Of a stretch of DNA of 64,000 nt, positions 56,162-64,000 are shown in pieces. This DNA is from Aquimarina sp. AU58. GTDB lineage: Bacteria; Bacteroidota; Bacteroidia; Flavobacteriales; Flavobacteriaceae. The notes beneath the pieces were generated by a model, which did not search any database, was not told the DNA's origin, and worked only from the letters and a program-made list of their open reading frames with translations. A program made the translations under genes and the position numbers. How positions within the stretch are numbered: the stretch's first letter is position 1; each line of letters opens with the position of its first letter. The stretch covers positions 310,001 to 374,000 of the forward strand of contig NZ_OMPD01000014.1 of NCBI RefSeq assembly GCF_900312745.1, written 5' to 3'.

Positions 56162-56524
56162 ATGTCAAATGCAATTAGCTGGTTTGAAATACCAAGCACT
56201 AATTTTGAAAGAGCAATACAATTTTATAATGTGCTTTTAGAAGCCGAACTGCAACCTATGGAGATGGATTTTAAAATGGCTTTTTTTCCGTATAAAGATG
56301 GAGGTGTAGGAGGTTGTATTACTCATGGTAATGGTAATAAACCTTCACAAGAAGGTACATTTGCTTATCTTAATGGAGGTGATGATTTATCTATTCCTTT
56401 GGCTAGGGTAGAAAAAGCAGGTGGGAAGATTTTAATGCCGAAAACTTCACTGGGAGAAAATGGATATATGGCGATTTTCCTGGATACCGAAGGAAATAGA
56501 GTGGCTTTCCATTCTATGAAGTAG
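56162..56524 (+). CDS. VOC-family (glyoxalase/bleomycin-resistance-like) protein
   Basis: A 120-residue protein with the paired beta-alpha-beta VOC fold: ISWFEIPSTNFERAIQFYNVL at the start and GYMAIFLDTEGNRVAFHS at the end. The E/H metal-ligand pattern is partial. Members include glyoxalases, dioxygenases and resistance proteins; the activity here is unknown. It starts 38 bp after the -7 box at 56124. Confidence 0.88.
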   Translation: MSNAISWFEIPSTNFERAIQFYNVLLEAELQPMEMDFKMAFFPYKDGGVGGCITHGNGNKPSQEGTFAYLNGGDDLSIPLARVEKAGGKILMPKTSLGENGYMAIFLDTEGNRVAFHSMK

Positions 56525-56534
56525 CATTTTGTAT

Positions 56535-56579
56535 CTCTTGTCACATTAAGTAATGTGAAAAGACTGAATGTGGCAAGAG
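56535..56579 (+). promoter_or_regulatory. Mutually exclusive hairpins between VOC and DUF2461 genes
   Basis: CACATTA (56542-56548) can pair with TAATGTG (56551-56557). The longer segment CTCTTGTCACATT (56535-56547) can instead pair with AATGTGGCAAGAG (56567-56579) with one G-U pair. The two structures exclude each other, as in attenuators. This is seen in sequence only. Confidence 0.35.
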
Positions 56580-56618
56580 GTATTTATTCTGTTTTTACTA
56601 ATTTTAATTACTGTATTG

Positions 56619-57284
56619 ATGCACTATTTTACAGAAGATTTTGTGGCTTTTTTTAAAGAGTTGGCAAAGAATAATCATAAAGACTGGTTTCATGAAAACA
56701 AAAAAAGATATGAAGCTAGCGTGAAAAAACCTTTTGAGGTATTTGTTGGTACTATGATAAGGGAAATACAAAAATTGGATCCGGCACTACAGGTTGAACC
56801 TAAGAATTGTGTACTTAGGATTAATAGAGATATTCGTTTCTCTAAAGATAAGTCTCCTTATAACTTACATTACACAGCTTTTATTTCGAGTAAAGGGCGT
56901 AAAGACAAAAGTATCCCGGGTATATTTTTACGTTTTTCGCCAGAAATGGTAGGTGTCATGGGTGGGTGTTTTGGCCCGTCAAAAGAACAATTACATAATA
57001 TAAGAACCACAATTAATAAATCGCCTAAGACATTTAGGAATTTATTAGAGGATAAGGATTTTGTGCAGAAATTTGGAGAAATAAGAGGCGAAACAATGAA
57101 ACGAATCCCCAAAGAATGGCAGGCGGCATGTGAAAAGGAACCTTTAATTGCTAATAAACAGTTCTACTTTGTTGGAGAAGAAGCTCCAGGTCTGATTAGT
57201 AGTGATGCCTTGGTCGAAGAAATGATGGCATATTGGCAAACGATGCGTCCTGTAAATGAATATTTATTAAAAGCAATTCAATAG
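56619..57284 (+). CDS. DUF2461 protein
   Basis: Using the ATG at 56619 it has 221 residues; the in-frame ATG at 56568 would add a hydrophobic leader that is not part of the family and would run through the hairpin. The sequence HYFTEDFVAFFKELAKNNHKDWFHENKKRYE and FLRFSPEMVGVMGGCFGPSKEQL are hallmarks of DUF2461 (YcaQ/TIGR02453), a conserved family without known activity. It is followed by the TfoX-like gene after 2 bp. Confidence 0.92.
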   Translation: MHYFTEDFVAFFKELAKNNHKDWFHENKKRYEASVKKPFEVFVGTMIREIQKLDPALQVEPKNCVLRINRDIRFSKDKSPYNLHYTAFISSKGRKDKSIPGIFLRFSPEMVGVMGGCFGPSKEQLHNIRTTINKSPKTFRNLLEDKDFVQKFGEIRGETMKRIPKEWQAACEKEPLIANKQFYFVGEEAPGLISSDALVEEMMAYWQTMRPVNEYLLKAIQ

Positions 57285-57286
57285 CT

Positions 57287-57646
57287 ATGGCATACAATGA
57301 ATTTATAGCAGATCGTATTCGGCAGATTTTTAGAGAACAAAAGGCAGATTTTTATGAAAAGAAAATGATGGGAGGACTATGCTTTATGGTCGATAATAAA
57401 ATGTGTTGTGGAATCCATTTTAGCAAGAAAAAGGAAATGGATTTACTAATGGCACGAATAGGGATAGATGCAACCGAAGAAGCTATGAAAAAAGAAGGGT
57501 GCCAACCCATGGATTTTACTGGTAGACCCATGAAAGGTTTTGTTTTTGTTACACCCGATGGTTTTGATCTGGATGAAGATCTCGAGTATTGGGTGCAATT
57601 ATGTTTGGATTTTAACCCTTTTGCAAAGAGTAGCAAAAAGAGATAA
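57287..57646 (+). CDS. TfoX N-terminal-domain protein
   Basis: A 119-residue protein that corresponds to the TfoX N-terminal domain alone (MMGGLCFMVDNKMCCGIHF and MDFTGRPMKGFVFV). In gammaproteobacteria TfoX controls competence, but stand-alone N-domains in Bacteroidota have no known role. It starts 2 bp after the DUF2461 stop, so the two genes form an operon. Confidence 0.88.
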   Translation: MAYNEFIADRIRQIFREQKADFYEKKMMGGLCFMVDNKMCCGIHFSKKKEMDLLMARIGIDATEEAMKKEGCQPMDFTGRPMKGFVFVTPDGFDLDEDLEYWVQLCLDFNPFAKSSKKR

Positions 57647-57753: not shown

Positions 57754-59466
57754 ATGATTTTTTTTAAAAGAATTTTATTAATACCCTTATTTTTTTCTGT
57801 TGGATTATCTGTTTTCTTAACAACAGGAATGTTTGCTCAAACAAAAGATGTTCCAGTGCCTGATAGCCTTGTTGGTAAATCCTCTAAAGAATTAGGAAGA
57901 TTTATAAAGATATCCACACCAGAAGAGGCAAAAATTTACGAACTAGTACTTTCTAGTCTCAAAAATCAGGATAGCGCCAAGACTAATGAGTATTATTATA
58001 TAGCACTTTCTTTTTACAATACGGGAAACTTCGAAAGAAGTGCATATTATTTTAACCATGCAGCAAAGGCGGCAAAGCAAGCGAACTACGATCTGTTTTT
58101 ATGTGCTATTTATTTAAAACTTGGCAATTCTTATCTCAAGGATTGGAAAAATCAAAAAGCATTAGATTCCTATTACAAGGCTTTGGAAATTGCACAAAAG
58201 AATAGAAATATTAAATATGAGATTGTTGCAAATTCAGGGATTACCATGATTCGTAGAAGAATGAAACAATTAGATAAAGCTTTAGAAGTTTGTAAACATT
58301 CCCTAAAACTTGCAGAGAACTCTTCTTTTAAAAATGGTAAAAACCATGTCAATCTAATTACTATTATTAGTGAAATATACATGGATCAAAAGAAATATGA
58401 TTCTGTACTTTATTATGCAGAAATAGGAATTAGACTTAGTGAGCCTATAAATTATCATATAGGAACTATTGATTTAAACACTAAAAAAGGAGCAGTGTTT
58501 TTTTATAGAAACGATTTGCCTAAGGCATTCGAGTATTTATATCTGGTAGAAGATATTGTGAATACTCATAAGATTAAGCAAAAAAAATCTATACTGAATC
58601 TGCATTATTTTCTTGCTCGTTGTTATTATAAACAAGGAGCATACAGAAAGGCAATTACATCTTTGGATCGAATATTAAACTTGTTAGAAGAAAAAGATTC
58701 AAGAAATGATAGAGTTTTGGATGCATATCGACTACTGGCAGATTGTTATGAGGCTATAGGAAATGAGAGAAAATCTAAATACTGGCTTAATAAACATACG
58801 ATACTTCAGGCTCAATTTCAGGACGAAAAGGATAAAACCGTTAATAAAATATACAATAAGGATACCCAGGAGCTGGGAGAGACTATAAAGGAACTCGAGA
58901 ATAGACAACAAAAAGAAGTAAGATATAGTATAATTGTAGTATTGATATTGTTAATATCGTTGATAGTAGTTGGAGGGTTGTTTTACAGGAAACAAAAAAT
59001 GAATAAAACTATTTTTAACGATTTGATGGATAAAATATCTAATCTGGAGTCTGAACGTAAAACAGAAATAATAGGATCTAAAGATAGTGCTAAGGAGATT
59101 ATAATCGATGATGAGAAAATCAATAATGTGCTAAAGGGGTTAGATAGATTAGAAAATCAGGAATATTTTTTGAAATCTGATTGTAGTCTCAGTACGATGG
59201 CCAAAAAAGTAAAAACTAATACTACATACCTTTCAAAAATTATCAAAATACATAAAGGAAAAAGCTTTAATGATTATATCAATGATTTAAGGATAGAATA
59301 TGTATTAAAAAGATTGAAAAATGACAAGAAGCTTAGATCTTTTTCGATTAAATCAATTGCTTCAGAAATAGGATATAAAAGCGATAATTCTTTTACCAAA
59401 CATTTTAGATCCAAAACGGGTTTAAACCCTTCTTATTATATTAAAAAAATCGAAAACTTAGGATAG
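57754..59466 (+). CDS. Membrane-anchored TPR/AraC-family transcription regulator
   Basis: Using the ATG at 57754 it has 570 residues. The order is a signal or anchor (FFKRILLIPLFFSVGLSVFL, about 1-28), a periplasmic TPR domain (about 45-365, several A-x-x-x-Y-x-x-A-L repeats), one transmembrane helix (VRYSIIVVLILLISLIVVGGLF, about 390-411), a linker and an AraC-type double HTH (about 470-570; LSTMAKKVKTNTTYLSKII and SIKSIASEIGYKSDNSFTKHF). The receptor thus senses a periplasmic signal and acts on DNA directly. It lies 114 bp upstream of the first GG-leader peptide gene on the same strand and is the best candidate regulator of that locus. Confidence 0.92.
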   Translation: MIFFKRILLIPLFFSVGLSVFLTTGMFAQTKDVPVPDSLVGKSSKELGRFIKISTPEEAKIYELVLSSLKNQDSAKTNEYYYIALSFYNTGNFERSAYYFNHAAKAAKQANYDLFLCAIYLKLGNSYLKDWKNQKALDSYYKALEIAQKNRNIKYEIVANSGITMIRRRMKQLDKALEVCKHSLKLAENSSFKNGKNHVNLITIISEIYMDQKKYDSVLYYAEIGIRLSEPINYHIGTIDLNTKKGAVFFYRNDLPKAFEYLYLVEDIVNTHKIKQKKSILNLHYFLARCYYKQGAYRKAITSLDRILNLLEEKDSRNDRVLDAYRLLADCYEAIGNERKSKYWLNKHTILQAQFQDEKDKTVNKIYNKDTQELGETIKELENRQQKEVRYSIIVVLILLISLIVVGGLFYRKQKMNKTIFNDLMDKISNLESERKTEIIGSKDSAKEIIIDDEKINNVLKGLDRLENQEYFLKSDCSLSTMAKKVKTNTTYLSKIIKIHKGKSFNDYINDLRIEYVLKRLKNDKKLRSFSIKSIASEIGYKSDNSFTKHFRSKTGLNPSYYIKKIENLG

Positions 59467-59586
59467 TATTTTCATAGATAAGTAGCTTCTAATTCCTACC
59501 GCAATTTATTTAAATTGAGGATAACAAATTATGATCGATGTTATATAGAAAGTATATTATTTTATAAATATTAAACTAATATGATC

Positions 59587-59754
59587 ATGAAAAAACATCA
59601 AAACAAAAGGATCGACCTTAAAAAAATTACTATTACCAGAATTAACCACAGCGCAATGAGAATGGTAAAAGGTGGAGAATGTGAGGTTACGGATGAAGAT
59701 ACAGGAACTCATGAGAGTCTTTGCGTTTGTCAAAGCGGGCGTGACGTATTTTAG
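59587..59754 (+). CDS. Lanthipeptide-like GG-leader peptide (small gene)
   Basis: A 55-residue product (57 if the ATG at 59581 is used). The leader KKHQNKRIDLKKITITRIN ends at a double glycine (residues 29-30, MVKGG) and follows the LKKxTIxxxNxxxM pattern of Bacteroidota class I lanthipeptide and GG-type natural-product leaders. The 25-residue core ECEVTDEDTGTHESLCVCQS ends GRDVF, with three Cys and several Thr/Ser, so it could carry thioether rings. No lanthionine synthetase, peptidase-transporter or immunity gene lies within the window. It may be an orphan precursor or a secreted non-modified peptide. Confidence 0.72.
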   Translation: MKKHQNKRIDLKKITITRINHSAMRMVKGGECEVTDEDTGTHESLCVCQSGRDVF

Positions 59755-59979
59755 ATTTACCTTTTTTAACTATTCCAATTTTTTAGGTTGTTACGAGTGT
59801 TTTCTTGCTCCTCATTTTATCTAATATACGGGAGTTATGTTTTTCTCTCTCTTTGTTAGATTATACCTTAGAGTAGAAAGTCAAAGTGTTGTTAACAATA
59901 ATGTTTTGATAAAGGGGGAAGCCGAAAACCTTTTAATAGAGTAGGTAAGTTTTATAATTCAATTTAAATCTAATAAGTT

Positions 59980-60171
59980 ATGTTATCAAAAATTCTAAGT
60001 TTAAAAGATGTTCAGCAATTAAACAAAAAACAACAAGAAACTATTAATGGAGGGATACAACATCCTGTTGGATGTAGAACCAGAAGGGATTGCTTCCAAG
60101 CAATTGGGGAATGGGATTGGTATTGCTCTATATCGCCATATGGTGGTTATGGGACTTGCATGCCGTACTAA
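59980..60171 (+). CDS. Cys-rich GG-leader bacteriocin-like peptide
   Basis: A 63-residue peptide. The leader LSKILSLKDVQQLNKKQQE runs to NGG (residues 23-25) and matches the double-glycine leaders of flavobacterial bacteriocin-like peptides. The 38-residue core has four Cys with C-x5-C-x10-C-x10-C spacing, aromatic residues and Gly-Tyr repeats (SPYGGYGTC), so it probably forms two disulphides. It starts 225 bp after the first peptide gene and ends before a strong terminator. No transporter or immunity gene is near. Activity (toxin, signal or adhesin) is unknown. Confidence 0.78.
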   Translation: MLSKILSLKDVQQLNKKQQETINGGIQHPVGCRTRRDCFQAIGEWDWYCSISPYGGYGTCMPY

Positions 60172-61056: not shown

Positions 61057-63534
61057 TTATCGACGTACAATTCTTTTAATAGTTCTACCTTTGTTAGTTT
61101 CAACCTCCATAAAATACACTCCAGATTTAAGAGATGAAATATCAAAAGTAGAGTTAGAGGTTTCAAATACTTTTCTTCCGTAGTAATTATATACAGAAAC
61201 TTTTTTTACAGTAATCGTAAGATTTACAACTCCATCAGTTGGATTAGGATATAGTTTAAAGGTAGATATTGTATCTTCTTGTTGTGAAACAATAGTGTCT
61301 AATACAATACAAGAGGATCTGGTTGTACAACCATTTTGTGTAATATCAACAGCATATGAGCCATTTTCAGACGCCGTAAATGATTGATTTGTTTCTCCAG
61401 ATATAGGTTGATTTGTTTCACAATTAACCCACTGATATGTTGCATCTGTTTGAATGGCTGTATAAGTTAGTGAATTATTTGTTATTGTTACATCTGGTAA
61501 TGCGTTTATGGTTATGTCTACCATGCTAGAGGTAGCACATGTGCCTAATGTGGTATAGGTTACGGTATGGGTTCCAGGTATAGATTTCTGGATATTAATT
61601 TCTCCAGAAATTTCATTAATACTTAATCCCGATGTTGAACTAAATGTTCCTCCTTCTACCCCGGTTATTGTCGGTATGGGATTATTTGCATCAGGACAAT
61701 AGGTCAAATCATCAAAACTGAAAGCAGAATTATCTAATTGAGTAATATTTACGACTACATCATTAGAATTGGGACAGGTTCCCTTGGTTGTATATGTTAC
61801 AGTATAAGACCCTGTTGTACTGGTAGCAATATCGATTGTTCCGGTATTAGGATCAATGCTTAATCCTGATGTACTAGAAAATACTCCTCCAGCTAATCCC
61901 GAAATCGAGGGGGTAGGGTTAGCATCTTCTTTGCAATAATTACTTGAACTATAGTTAAAACCTGGATCGTCCAATTCGATGATATCTACAACAACATCAC
62001 TAGAATTGGGACAGGTTCCCGTAGTTGTATAGGTTATAGTGTGAGATCCTGTTGTGCTGGCGGCAATATCGATTGTTCCGGTATTAGGATCAATGCTTAA
62101 TCCTATTGTACTAGAGAATACACCACCAGTCAATCCCGAAATCGAAGGTGTAGGATTAGTATCTCCTTTGCAATAATTACTTGAGCTATAGTTAAAACTT
62201 GGATCATCGATGGCGTTAACTACAATAGTAATCGTCGTACAGGTAGCTGTTGTCTCGTCAATGCAAGAGATACCATCATCTTCTCCTCTGATATAATAAG
62301 TGGTGCTTGGTGCGGTGGGGGTGACCTCAAAGGTCGATGTATTAGTCTTTGTTGTGCCTATAAGAGTACCTCCGCAAGAATCAGTATATATCGACCATGT
62401 AGAGGCGATATTAAGATTACCGGTAATAGTTATGGTAGAGGTTTCTCCTTCACAAGTAACAGGTGTTGCTGTAATAGTTGATATGGTTGGTGGTATACAT
62501 ACAGGAACTTGTCTAAACCAGGCAAATCTAGGGGCATTAAAATTTGCTAAAATAGCATCTTTTAAACCATCTCCATTTACATCGCCAAAATCAACAGTAG
62601 GAAAATCTCCTATATCGGCATTAGTTAATTCTCCATCCATAGTCTTTTGAGAAGTCGAGAAATGAGGATTTGTAGCTGTTCCAGTGTTTTCTATCCACCT
62701 CACGAAACCTGTGTCAATCATAAAATACATATCATAATCCCCATCTTTGTCAAAATCTTCAAATACAGGTATGGGTACATCCATATTAGTATATGCACTT
62801 TCATCATCCCAGGGGCTATCCGCTTCAGATTGTAATTCAAAATTAGGATTTTCTTTGGTGCCTATATTTTTATAGTATGTTAGCTTATCACCTCCCAATG
62901 CTACTAAATCGAGATCTGTGTCATTATCAAGATCTACAAACCCTAAACCTGGAAATTCTGCGATATCTTGATCCAGAAGCCCAGGTAAACAATCTGGAGC
63001 ATATTCAAATACCGGTACTTCTTTAGTGCCAATATTCCTATAAAATCGAATATCATCATCTGTTAAGCCTTCATAATTATATTGAGATCCAATAAATAGA
63101 TCCAGATCTCCATCATCATCAATATCTGCCAATTGCGGTCTATTTTGATTTCTCGCAGAGCTACTGGCATGTATTTTTATAGTATCTAAAGTAGGTATTG
63201 ATGCCAGAACCCAATAGGGAGCTGTAGCTGTACCCGTATTTTCGAAGTAATGAATAGATCCTCTTTGGCTTCCGGAAATAAAATCAAGATCATTGTCATT
63301 GTCAAGATCTACCAGTATAGCAGAAGGAAGACGCCCATCTGAAGTAGGTATTTCTGTAGCTCCTCCCGGGCCATATAATCCAGCAGGTTCGGGTCCAGGA
63401 CGTGTAGAACCACTACCATCAGGATTAGAGAGAATTCTTCCTCCTCTAAACTCCCAGCTTATATAATCTGCTTGCGCAAGCATTAATTGATTCCCCAAAT
63501 GAAAAAGTAAACAAATAAGTAATAGTTTTTTCAT
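61057..63534 (-). CDS. T9SS-secreted FG-GAP/Ig-like surface protein
   Basis: Using the ATG at 63534, which opens a signal peptide (KKLLLICLLFHLGNQLMLAQ), it has 825 residues; an earlier in-frame ATG adds 16 residues without function. FG-GAP/VCBS repeats (about 50-350, many D-x-D-x-D-G-D-x-D calcium loops such as DLDNDNDLDFISGS) form a beta-propeller. Ig-like repeats, including three 79-residue modules with a shared NYC...P.PSISG..GG.FSST core, and a T9SS sorting domain (VYNYYGRKVFETSNSTFDIS, last 75 residues) follow. It is probably a surface adhesin or polymer-binding protein. A second T9SS-type role is suggested by the calcium loops only. Confidence 0.93.
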   Translation of the reverse strand: MKKLLLICLLFHLGNQLMLAQADYISWEFRGGRILSNPDGSGSTRPGPEPAGLYGPGGATEIPTSDGRLPSAILVDLDNDNDLDFISGSQRGSIHYFENTGTATAPYWVLASIPTLDTIKIHASSSARNQNRPQLADIDDDGDLDLFIGSQYNYEGLTDDDIRFYRNIGTKEVPVFEYAPDCLPGLLDQDIAEFPGLGFVDLDNDTDLDLVALGGDKLTYYKNIGTKENPNFELQSEADSPWDDESAYTNMDVPIPVFEDFDKDGDYDMYFMIDTGFVRWIENTGTATNPHFSTSQKTMDGELTNADIGDFPTVDFGDVNGDGLKDAILANFNAPRFAWFRQVPVCIPPTISTITATPVTCEGETSTITITGNLNIASTWSIYTDSCGGTLIGTTKTNTSTFEVTPTAPSTTYYIRGEDDGISCIDETTATCTTITIVVNAIDDPSFNYSSSNYCKGDTNPTPSISGLTGGVFSSTIGLSIDPNTGTIDIAASTTGSHTITYTTTGTCPNSSDVVVDIIELDDPGFNYSSSNYCKEDANPTPSISGLAGGVFSSTSGLSIDPNTGTIDIATSTTGSYTVTYTTKGTCPNSNDVVVNITQLDNSAFSFDDLTYCPDANNPIPTITGVEGGTFSSTSGLSINEISGEINIQKSIPGTHTVTYTTLGTCATSSMVDITINALPDVTITNNSLTYTAIQTDATYQWVNCETNQPISGETNQSFTASENGSYAVDITQNGCTTRSSCIVLDTIVSQQEDTISTFKLYPNPTDGVVNLTITVKKVSVYNYYGRKVFETSNSTFDISSLKSGVYFMEVETNKGRTIKRIVRR
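61502..62215 (-). repeat. Three 237-bp tandem Ig-like modules
   Basis: Three modules of 79 codons repeat in the FG-GAP protein; the two upstream ones (61740-62215) are very similar in DNA at an offset of 237 bp, the third is diverged. It signals past tandem duplication of an Ig-like domain. Confidence 0.8.
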
Positions 63535-64000
63535 AACTATAGTTTTAAATAGTTGATCTCTAAATCTTATAATACACATCATTATGATATATACTTTTTG
63601 TATATACCATAGTCAATTAATAATTTTAAATGGCAGCACATCTCTGCAAACCAATTATGGAGATAATAGGGGCAATTTAATTTAGAGACATTTTATGTTC
63701 TCTCGGTCTGTGGTTTTAAGAAGTACTGTATTACCATTACCAAGAGGGGGGAAAGTAAGTAATTTTATATGTATAATACAGTTGAGTGCAAAATTAGTAA
63801 TTTAGTTTTTCTTTAACAAGATAATATTATGTTAATACCCTGTTTTATATTTTTGTATTAACCAAAAAAGCAGGAATCGGTTGTTTTTTCGAGCTTCAAA
63901 AACGATTTTTGAAATAATAAATTAAATCCTGAGAAGATTGCTTTTTTAATAATACTCTAGTTTATATTCGTGAGTACTTTTTAATCAAACGCCCATACCT
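63535..64000. other. 466-bp region at the right window end
   Basis: No gene is seen. It contains the upstream region of the FG-GAP gene with a TATATAC/GTATATA hairpin (63587-63605). The rest is AT-rich with no clear repeats. Confidence 0.55.

Follow-up and report, generated by a model that had tools for sequence, protein, structure and literature searches.

How a gene that looks like a lanthipeptide precursor might serve its host at a site where no lanthipeptide enzyme is encoded is the question raised by pepA (59587-59754, plus strand), a small gene of Aquimarina sp. AU58 that lies in a stretch of 64,000 nucleotides (C2:310001-374000), analysed as a whole and referred to here as the window. 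Its 55-residue product consists of a basic leader, MKKHQNKRIDLKKITITRINHSAMRMVKGG, with GG at residues 29-30, and a 25-residue core, ECEVTDEDTGTHESLCVCQSGRDVF, with three Cys and five Thr/Ser; an alternative in-frame start, the ATG at 59581, would add two residues. An earlier note, made from the letters of the DNA, had described a 55-codon gene with a GG-ending leader and a 25-residue, three-Cys core, and the open reading frame on the plus strand agrees with this description. The note had also ascribed the leader to the type found in Bacteroidota class I lanthipeptides, which is borne out by the NCBIfam family NF038153 (lant_leader_L1a), with 25.2 bits against a curated cut-off of 22. The leaders of class I LanA peptides from Bacteroidetes follow the pattern LxLxKx5L and often end in GG, as described in one study (PMC7268733). 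A radical-SAM reading of pepA (TIGR04149, rSAM-modified RiPP) was rejected at 16.8 bits, under the cut-off of 25.

Matches to pepA at E <= 1 are present in 43 of 91 genomes, comprising the own genome, 51 of the same genus and 39 of the same order, and the best six, the own one among them, have identities of 75-100%. Across seven orthologues from as many genomes, dN/dS is 0.25 (leader 0.13, core 0.46), the three core Cys are invariant and most of the core Thr/Ser are retained. Conservation of leader and core in related genomes, on which the earlier note had made its own reading depend, is therefore found. Because the leader exceeds the family cut-off, orthologues occur in the same genus and dN/dS is 0.25, pepA is, judged by its sequence, a genuine gene and not a chance reading frame.

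The earlier note had further called this precursor an orphan. As far as modifying and export genes are concerned the word is apt, the genome's matches to LanB (PF04738), LanC (PF05147) and C39 (PF03412) all lying outside the window, but it does not fit the rest of the neighbourhood, in which a full-length regulator gene, a second GG-leader peptide and a conserved dyad adjoin pepA. In a wider view it fits even less, pepA being part of a regulator-peptide cassette at a site that shares its synteny with the full lanBC clusters found in relatives. The interpretation of pepA given in that note is, on the whole, partly supported.

The regulator, here named REG (57754-59466, plus strand), is encoded directly upstream of pepA by an open reading frame of 579 codons from TTG 57727, for which ATG 57754 is the likelier start. 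It combines an N-terminal signal or anchor helix, a predicted periplasmic TPR domain, one transmembrane helix and a C-terminal AraC-type HTH, with Pfam matches over the cut-off to TPR_12 and HTH_18 and hydrophobic segments at residues 5-23 and 401-419 (numbered from TTG 57727, 579 aa). An AlphaFold2 model (73 sequences; mean pLDDT 89.3, pTM 0.65) has, numbered from the ATG, a helix at 2-28, TPR helices at 44-334 and a long helix at 338-435 that includes the membrane segment, followed by the DNA-binding domain. Since the N-terminal helix is combined with a membrane segment between the TPR and the DNA-binding domain, the TPR side of the modelled protein should be periplasmic. The internal hydrophobic helix is found in all 143 of 143 REGs paired with a peptide, and the N-terminal one in 121 of them. 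Relatives of REG occur in Aquimarina, Dokdonia, Kordia and other Flavobacteriaceae or Bacteroidia: a query of the single REG matches 4 of 295 genomes of the class at E 1e-30, the own one included (four candidates scored per genome), and with a REG profile, 57 of 249 genomes of the family match at E 1e-60, including the own genome and one of the same genus (five scored per genome). Among plasmid records, 15 match REG, none of them covering more than 80% of the query.

The pairing of such a regulator with a GG-leader peptide recurs many times. The own genome contains 15 REGs that match over both TPR and HTH, one of which (L051) has stops in the match; a GG-leader peptide lies at most 400 bp behind ten of the fifteen under a strict rule (eleven if an AG leader is counted), and five have none. 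In four other genomes, a GG peptide is found behind 12 of 27 REG matches, some of which are partial, and among other AraC-type loci, matched mainly through the AraC-type domain, behind 0 of 14. A further 79 loci were picked for a pepA-like peptide (from 80 chosen by hand among the matches listed, the 80th, L235, being read separately); 70 of them have REG upstream of the peptide, one has REG only and eight have no REG, with gaps of mostly 100-230 bp. Of these eight, L186 is truncated at the end of its contig, and L227, L229 and L231 come from other families. A search of the family returned 30 loci, one of them the window's own, and the 29 others include 11 with a GG peptide, counting L247 of the same genus; in the other genera of the family, the peptide is behind 10 of 28 REG loci and missing from 18. 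In a genome from another family of the order, REG and a GG peptide are encoded divergently next to each other, and a split LanB is encoded one gene away. In another REG set, the peptide is present in 74 of 99 cases. This figure is biased, since the peptide was the reason for choosing many of the loci, and it leaves aside L003-L044 (short flanks), REGs that end less than 500 bp from the end of the locus and REGs with identical ends. Under a lax peptide rule, the background is 7 of 89 other open reading frames of at least 200 aa, in nine sources that had been selected for peptides or enzymes; one of the seven lies in the window. That REG and a GG peptide form a recurrent cassette, present many times per genome, is well supported by these comparisons of gene order, and the REG-pepA pair looks like a dedicated signal-and-sensor cassette.

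Two variants were seen alongside. Behind the peptide-less REGs of L126, L127, L133, L152 and L272 follows a protein of about 125 aa, similar-looking in all five. Its N-terminus is hydrophobic and it has a CxC motif; it may be another type of ligand or partner. In L109 (5043-9152), two tandem GG peptides stand behind a protein of 1124 aa, about 300 aa of which match REG.

At the same site, several relatives have the gene order REG-pep1-pep2-lanC-lanB-lanB', where lanB encodes the N-terminal and lanB' the C-terminal part of the dehydratase. Some relatives have two to four REG-pep1 units, every REG with its own pep1; in L110-L112, L114, L115 and L121, such 2-4 units lie in or beside one lanthipeptide cluster, and, where a dyad was found, its operator arms differ from unit to unit. 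On the left, one to three of the genes at 56162-57646 are shared with L110, L112, L113, L115 and L122 at 72-93% identity; on the right, the protein encoded at 61057-63582 is shared with L110, L111, L113 and L120 at 58-67%, so that L110 and L113 share both flanks. Given this synteny on both sides, the window is, by gene order, the same site without lanC and lanB, with regulator, operator and both peptides kept. The right-hand protein (minus strand), which neighbours the lanthipeptide cluster in those four relatives, is a large, secreted-looking repeat protein with a sorting-like C-terminal tail, as judged by eye.

The second of the two peptides, pepB (59980-60171, plus strand), has a GG leader of a different kind (MLSKILSLKDV...INGG) and a four-Cys core. 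In seven genomes its dN/dS is 0.16, and its core, at 0.14, is more conserved than that of pepA. It matches no NCBIfam family up to E 10, and PF14406 scores 14.1 bits, under the cut-off of 25. The constraint on both peptides bears on one explanation of the site, namely that it is the relic of a lanthipeptide cluster, functionless or drifting after the loss of lanC-lanB. Such a fate would agree with the synteny to complete clusters and with the two flanks found together in L110 and L113; it is, however, at odds with purifying selection on both genes (0.25 and 0.16 in seven genomes), with the invariant Cys of pepA and with the retained dyad, and we regard it as improbable.

Machinery encoded elsewhere, which the earlier note had offered as a possibility, does have candidates in the genome, in the form of one split LanB, two LanC and four C39 (PF03412) matches. 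The LanB, on contig C12, has PF04738 and PF14028 and adjoins another REG and a C39 ABC transporter. The LanC at C2:3430992, also near a C39 ABC transporter, reads WCYG and LCHG, presumably the Zn-ligand motifs of LanC, and the one at C2:969701, which lacks these motifs, reads WTYG and FCNG. A class I lanthipeptide calls for LanB and for a LanC that has the Zn motifs, and both are present somewhere in the genome; as for their being encoded with the precursor, none is in the window, and in relatives they stand beside the same cassette. A LanC-like gene in L100 (9645-12600; G000:C2 near 970-972 kb) lacks the usual Zn motifs and is accompanied by a Cys-rich peptide, whose leader ends in RAGG and has the genome's top NF038153 score, and by what looks, by eye, like an enzyme of the formylglycine-generating type. 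Measured against the Dokdonia LanB parts (L087), the own LanB has 44% identity and cassette-linked ones have 57-59%; modification of pepA in trans is thus possible, but not by the cassette-linked enzyme type.

Among 31 genomes of the genus, the own one included, a pepA-like match (E <= 1, several of them weak) is present in 22 of 25 with LanB and in 0 of 6 without it, two of the six being incomplete (55% and 89%). These counts would support a genus-wide dependence of pepA-like peptides on LanB, but this was rejected, as genome size and relatedness confound them and as in G006, which lacks LanB, a GG peptide nevertheless accompanies one REG. Core Cys are absent from several REG-linked peptides (for example L128, L143, L144, L196 and L208), so lanthionine is not the common denominator of the cassettes.

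Between REG and pepA lies an imperfect dyad, op1 (59498-59520), ACCGCAATTT-ATTT-AAATTGAGG, the probable operator of REG, whose left arm is identical and whose right arm is variable in seven orthologues. When the genome was searched for the window dyad ACCGCAATTTATTTAAATTGAGG with up to three mismatches, ten matches were obtained (two for the reversed control): op1 itself, the sole one with zero mismatches, and its opposite strand with two, besides a second site with two and seven sites with three. Of 100 non-redundant REG-peptide intergenic regions, 38 contain an inverted repeat whose arms pair at 9 or more of 10 positions, compared with 12.7% of 1000 dinucleotide shuffles. In the window, op1 is followed by a probable pepA promoter (59530-59560, plus strand), TTATGAT ... 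TATATTAT, a block conserved in the seven orthologues, which we take to be of the Bacteroidota -33/-7 type. Between pepA and pepB is a degenerate and uncertain second dyad, op2 (59809-59832), which, read on the minus strand, differs from op1 at 5 of 22 specified bases. For 32 of the 34 cassettes, the region 32-93 bp past the pep1 stop contains the closest match to the cassette's own op1, with two to nine mismatches, and across these 34 units, in which related cassettes are not independent, the second dyad resembles its own op1 above the op1 of other cassettes (median rank fraction 0.16, p 1.6e-6).

The operators also follow the DNA-binding part of their regulators. Operator distance tracks HTH with TPR held fixed (0.34, n=80; 0.32, n=41; p 0.001) and does not track TPR with HTH held fixed (-0.07 to 0.05). 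By core class, the operator-HTH value is 0.63 (n=18) in one, the second giving no significant value (0.17, p 0.08, n=24), and in a nearest-neighbour test of the operator there was no preference for HTH (HTH-nearest 8, TPR_N-nearest 14). Dyads that sit right behind REG and right behind pep1 occupy positions typical of transcription terminators, and a T-rich stretch (59835-59853) follows op2, so that terminators or RNA hairpins might be seen in place of operators. Against this, the arms are rich in A+T, no T tract follows op1 in the seven aligned orthologues, and the arms vary between cassettes and with the HTH while being alike within one cassette, all of which leaves a terminator or hairpin function with little probability. 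As operators, then, the dyads are fairly supported by their sequence patterns as the control element of the cassette, and because second dyads behind pep1 resemble the own op1 and operators track HTH, REG probably acts on both pepA and pepB through op1 and op2.

Whether the peptide is also what REG senses can be approached through the covariation of the two, for which near-identical REGs were thinned beforehand and permutations that leave relatedness in were used (for L182, the GG was placed manually). Among 56 close cassettes, distance between pep1 cores follows that between REG residues 45-215, with TPR_C and HTH removed, at 0.44, and the leader does so at 0.13; the signal peaks at REG residues 101-160 and rises again at 181-240. 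Within two core classes, the core values are 0.26 (n=24) and 0.29 (n=35), both with p 0.001, and the leader values -0.06 and 0.07, although in the second class the core tracks TPR_C too (0.195, p 0.001). In 35 cassettes, the pep2 core reaches 0.19 (p 0.009) and falls to 0.01 with pep1 held fixed, and pep1 with pep2 held fixed stays at 0.49. Cassettes new to a second sample were weaker, at 0.148 (n=50), with 0.31 for the close ones (n=21), and the family's divergent half (n=59) gave no covariation of core and TPR_N (0.03, p 0.2). Nor did a nearest-neighbour test of the core reveal a preference for TPR_N: in the close set, the TPR_N-nearest cassette was closer in 16 cases and the HTH-nearest in 16, and against TPR_C the count was 7 to 17. 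On trees, from which one core of unclear class was left out, core class changes once for TPR_N, once for TPR_C and three times for linker plus HTH; much of the pooled signal comes from one deep split, so that the pooled Mantel value overstates the case, and the within-class values are more trustworthy. That REG senses mature pepA is what we infer, with support from these values and short of a result, because the divergent set, the nearest-neighbour test and the deep split go against it.

Taken together, we propose, with a confidence that is evenly poised, that REG switches on pepA and pepB and senses mature pepA, as an outward-facing analogue of RRNPP signalling. REG would bind op1 and op2 and turn on the two peptide genes. 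After cleavage at GG, the pepA product would leave the cell through a C39 ABC transporter whose gene lies elsewhere, its core possibly having been dehydrated and ring-closed before export by LanB and LanC encoded in trans, and the mature core would then bind its own REG at the first TPR repeats, setting the activity of the regulator. Each cassette would thus form one private autoinduction channel, with pepB-type peptides and, in relatives, the downstream lanC-lanB as the output. A broader and somewhat more tentative claim, to which we give a little less than even weight, is that this represents a novel peptide-pheromone system of the Flavobacteriaceae, in which one-piece membrane receptors (TPRs outward, AraC inward), each with its own operator and its own cognate exported peptide, possibly lanthionine-ringed, would provide many private channels per genome that control lanthipeptide production, and which would here have been kept without local biosynthetic enzymes.

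A different role for the same genes is possible, if rather doubtful: pepA may be an ordinary, dispersed class I lanthipeptide precursor and itself the product, modified in trans by the genome's single split LanB and a LanC, with REG controlling production and sensing something else, such as the state of the envelope, prey or another peptide. It would fit that LanB, LanC and C39 exporters are all encoded, that the genus counts, several weak matches included, run 22 of 25 to 0 of 6, that the Cys of the core are invariant and most of its Thr/Ser kept, and that the cassette adjoins lanBC in relatives. On the other hand, the own LanB is of a distant type (44% against 57-59% for cassette-linked ones), several REG-linked peptides do without core Cys, the LanB-less G006 keeps a REG with a GG peptide, and a dispersed precursor leaves the tracking of the sensor half by the core unexplained.

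The proposed signalling cassette has partial counterparts among known systems. With the NF038153 L1a family (Bacteroidetes LanA, with a split LanB as in pinensin) it shares a leader over the cut-off, the lanC and split lanB downstream in relatives, and a split LanB, LanC and C39 ABC transporter in the genome; it differs in that no enzyme is encoded at the pepA locus and in that most sampled peptides of the type are paired with a TPR-TM-AraC regulator, often with a dyad. RRNPP quorum sensing, with Rap-Phr, PlcR-PapR and NprR-NprX among its members, likewise has a TPR regulator gene next to a short propeptide gene, export of pepA being presumed from its GG leader. The REG profile matches RapI, RapF and others, and Foldseek matches phi3T Rap and RapI, but this similarity is not specific, LGN and designed TPRs scoring higher. 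The receptors of RRNPP systems, known from Firmicutes, are located inside the cell (PMC10075063), whereas REG is predicted to span the membrane with its TPRs outside, has an AraC-type DNA-binding part and goes with a GG-leader peptide. Membership of REG-pepA in RRNPP was rejected because a predicted membrane span does not suit a cytoplasmic receptor, the DNA-binding domain is of AraC type and the likeness to Rap is non-specific.

Nisin-type lantibiotics are autoinduced through the two-component pair NisRK; there, too, the locus is one for a lanthipeptide and the regulator may sense a peptide, but REG is a one-component membrane regulator and the signal would be a separate pep1, not the presumed product pep2. 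The prochlorosins, in which one LanM serves many scattered precursors, resemble this genome in its many dispersed precursors and few modifying enzymes, and differ in that the enzymes here are of class I and most precursors have their own regulator. In the accessible part of the literature, regulators in Bacteroidetes lanthipeptide clusters are mentioned in general terms only (PMC7268733), and TPR-domain genes are noted in two Bacteroidales RiPP clusters, where the TPRs may regulate once a pheromone is bound, while a third cluster has an HTH gene (PMC10352776). The latter is the nearest published hint to the pairing, which is itself not described in the accessible parts of either source (PMC7268733; PMC10352776). 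A search of open-licence literature returned no account in which a TPR-AraC regulator goes together with GG peptides. Gram-positive bacteria are well known for peptide autoinduction; for Bacteroidota, none of the REG-peptide kind was found in open-licence literature.

If REG does sense its neighbouring peptide, a single gene pair would combine sensor, transducer and output control across the membrane. Such pairs would then offer orthogonal peptide-operator combinations for engineering and a handle for turning on silent lanthipeptide clusters. For the organism itself, it would mean about ten such channels in this genome, and for the marine flavobacteria, it would explain many of the 'orphan' lanthipeptide-like precursors that have no adjoining enzymes.
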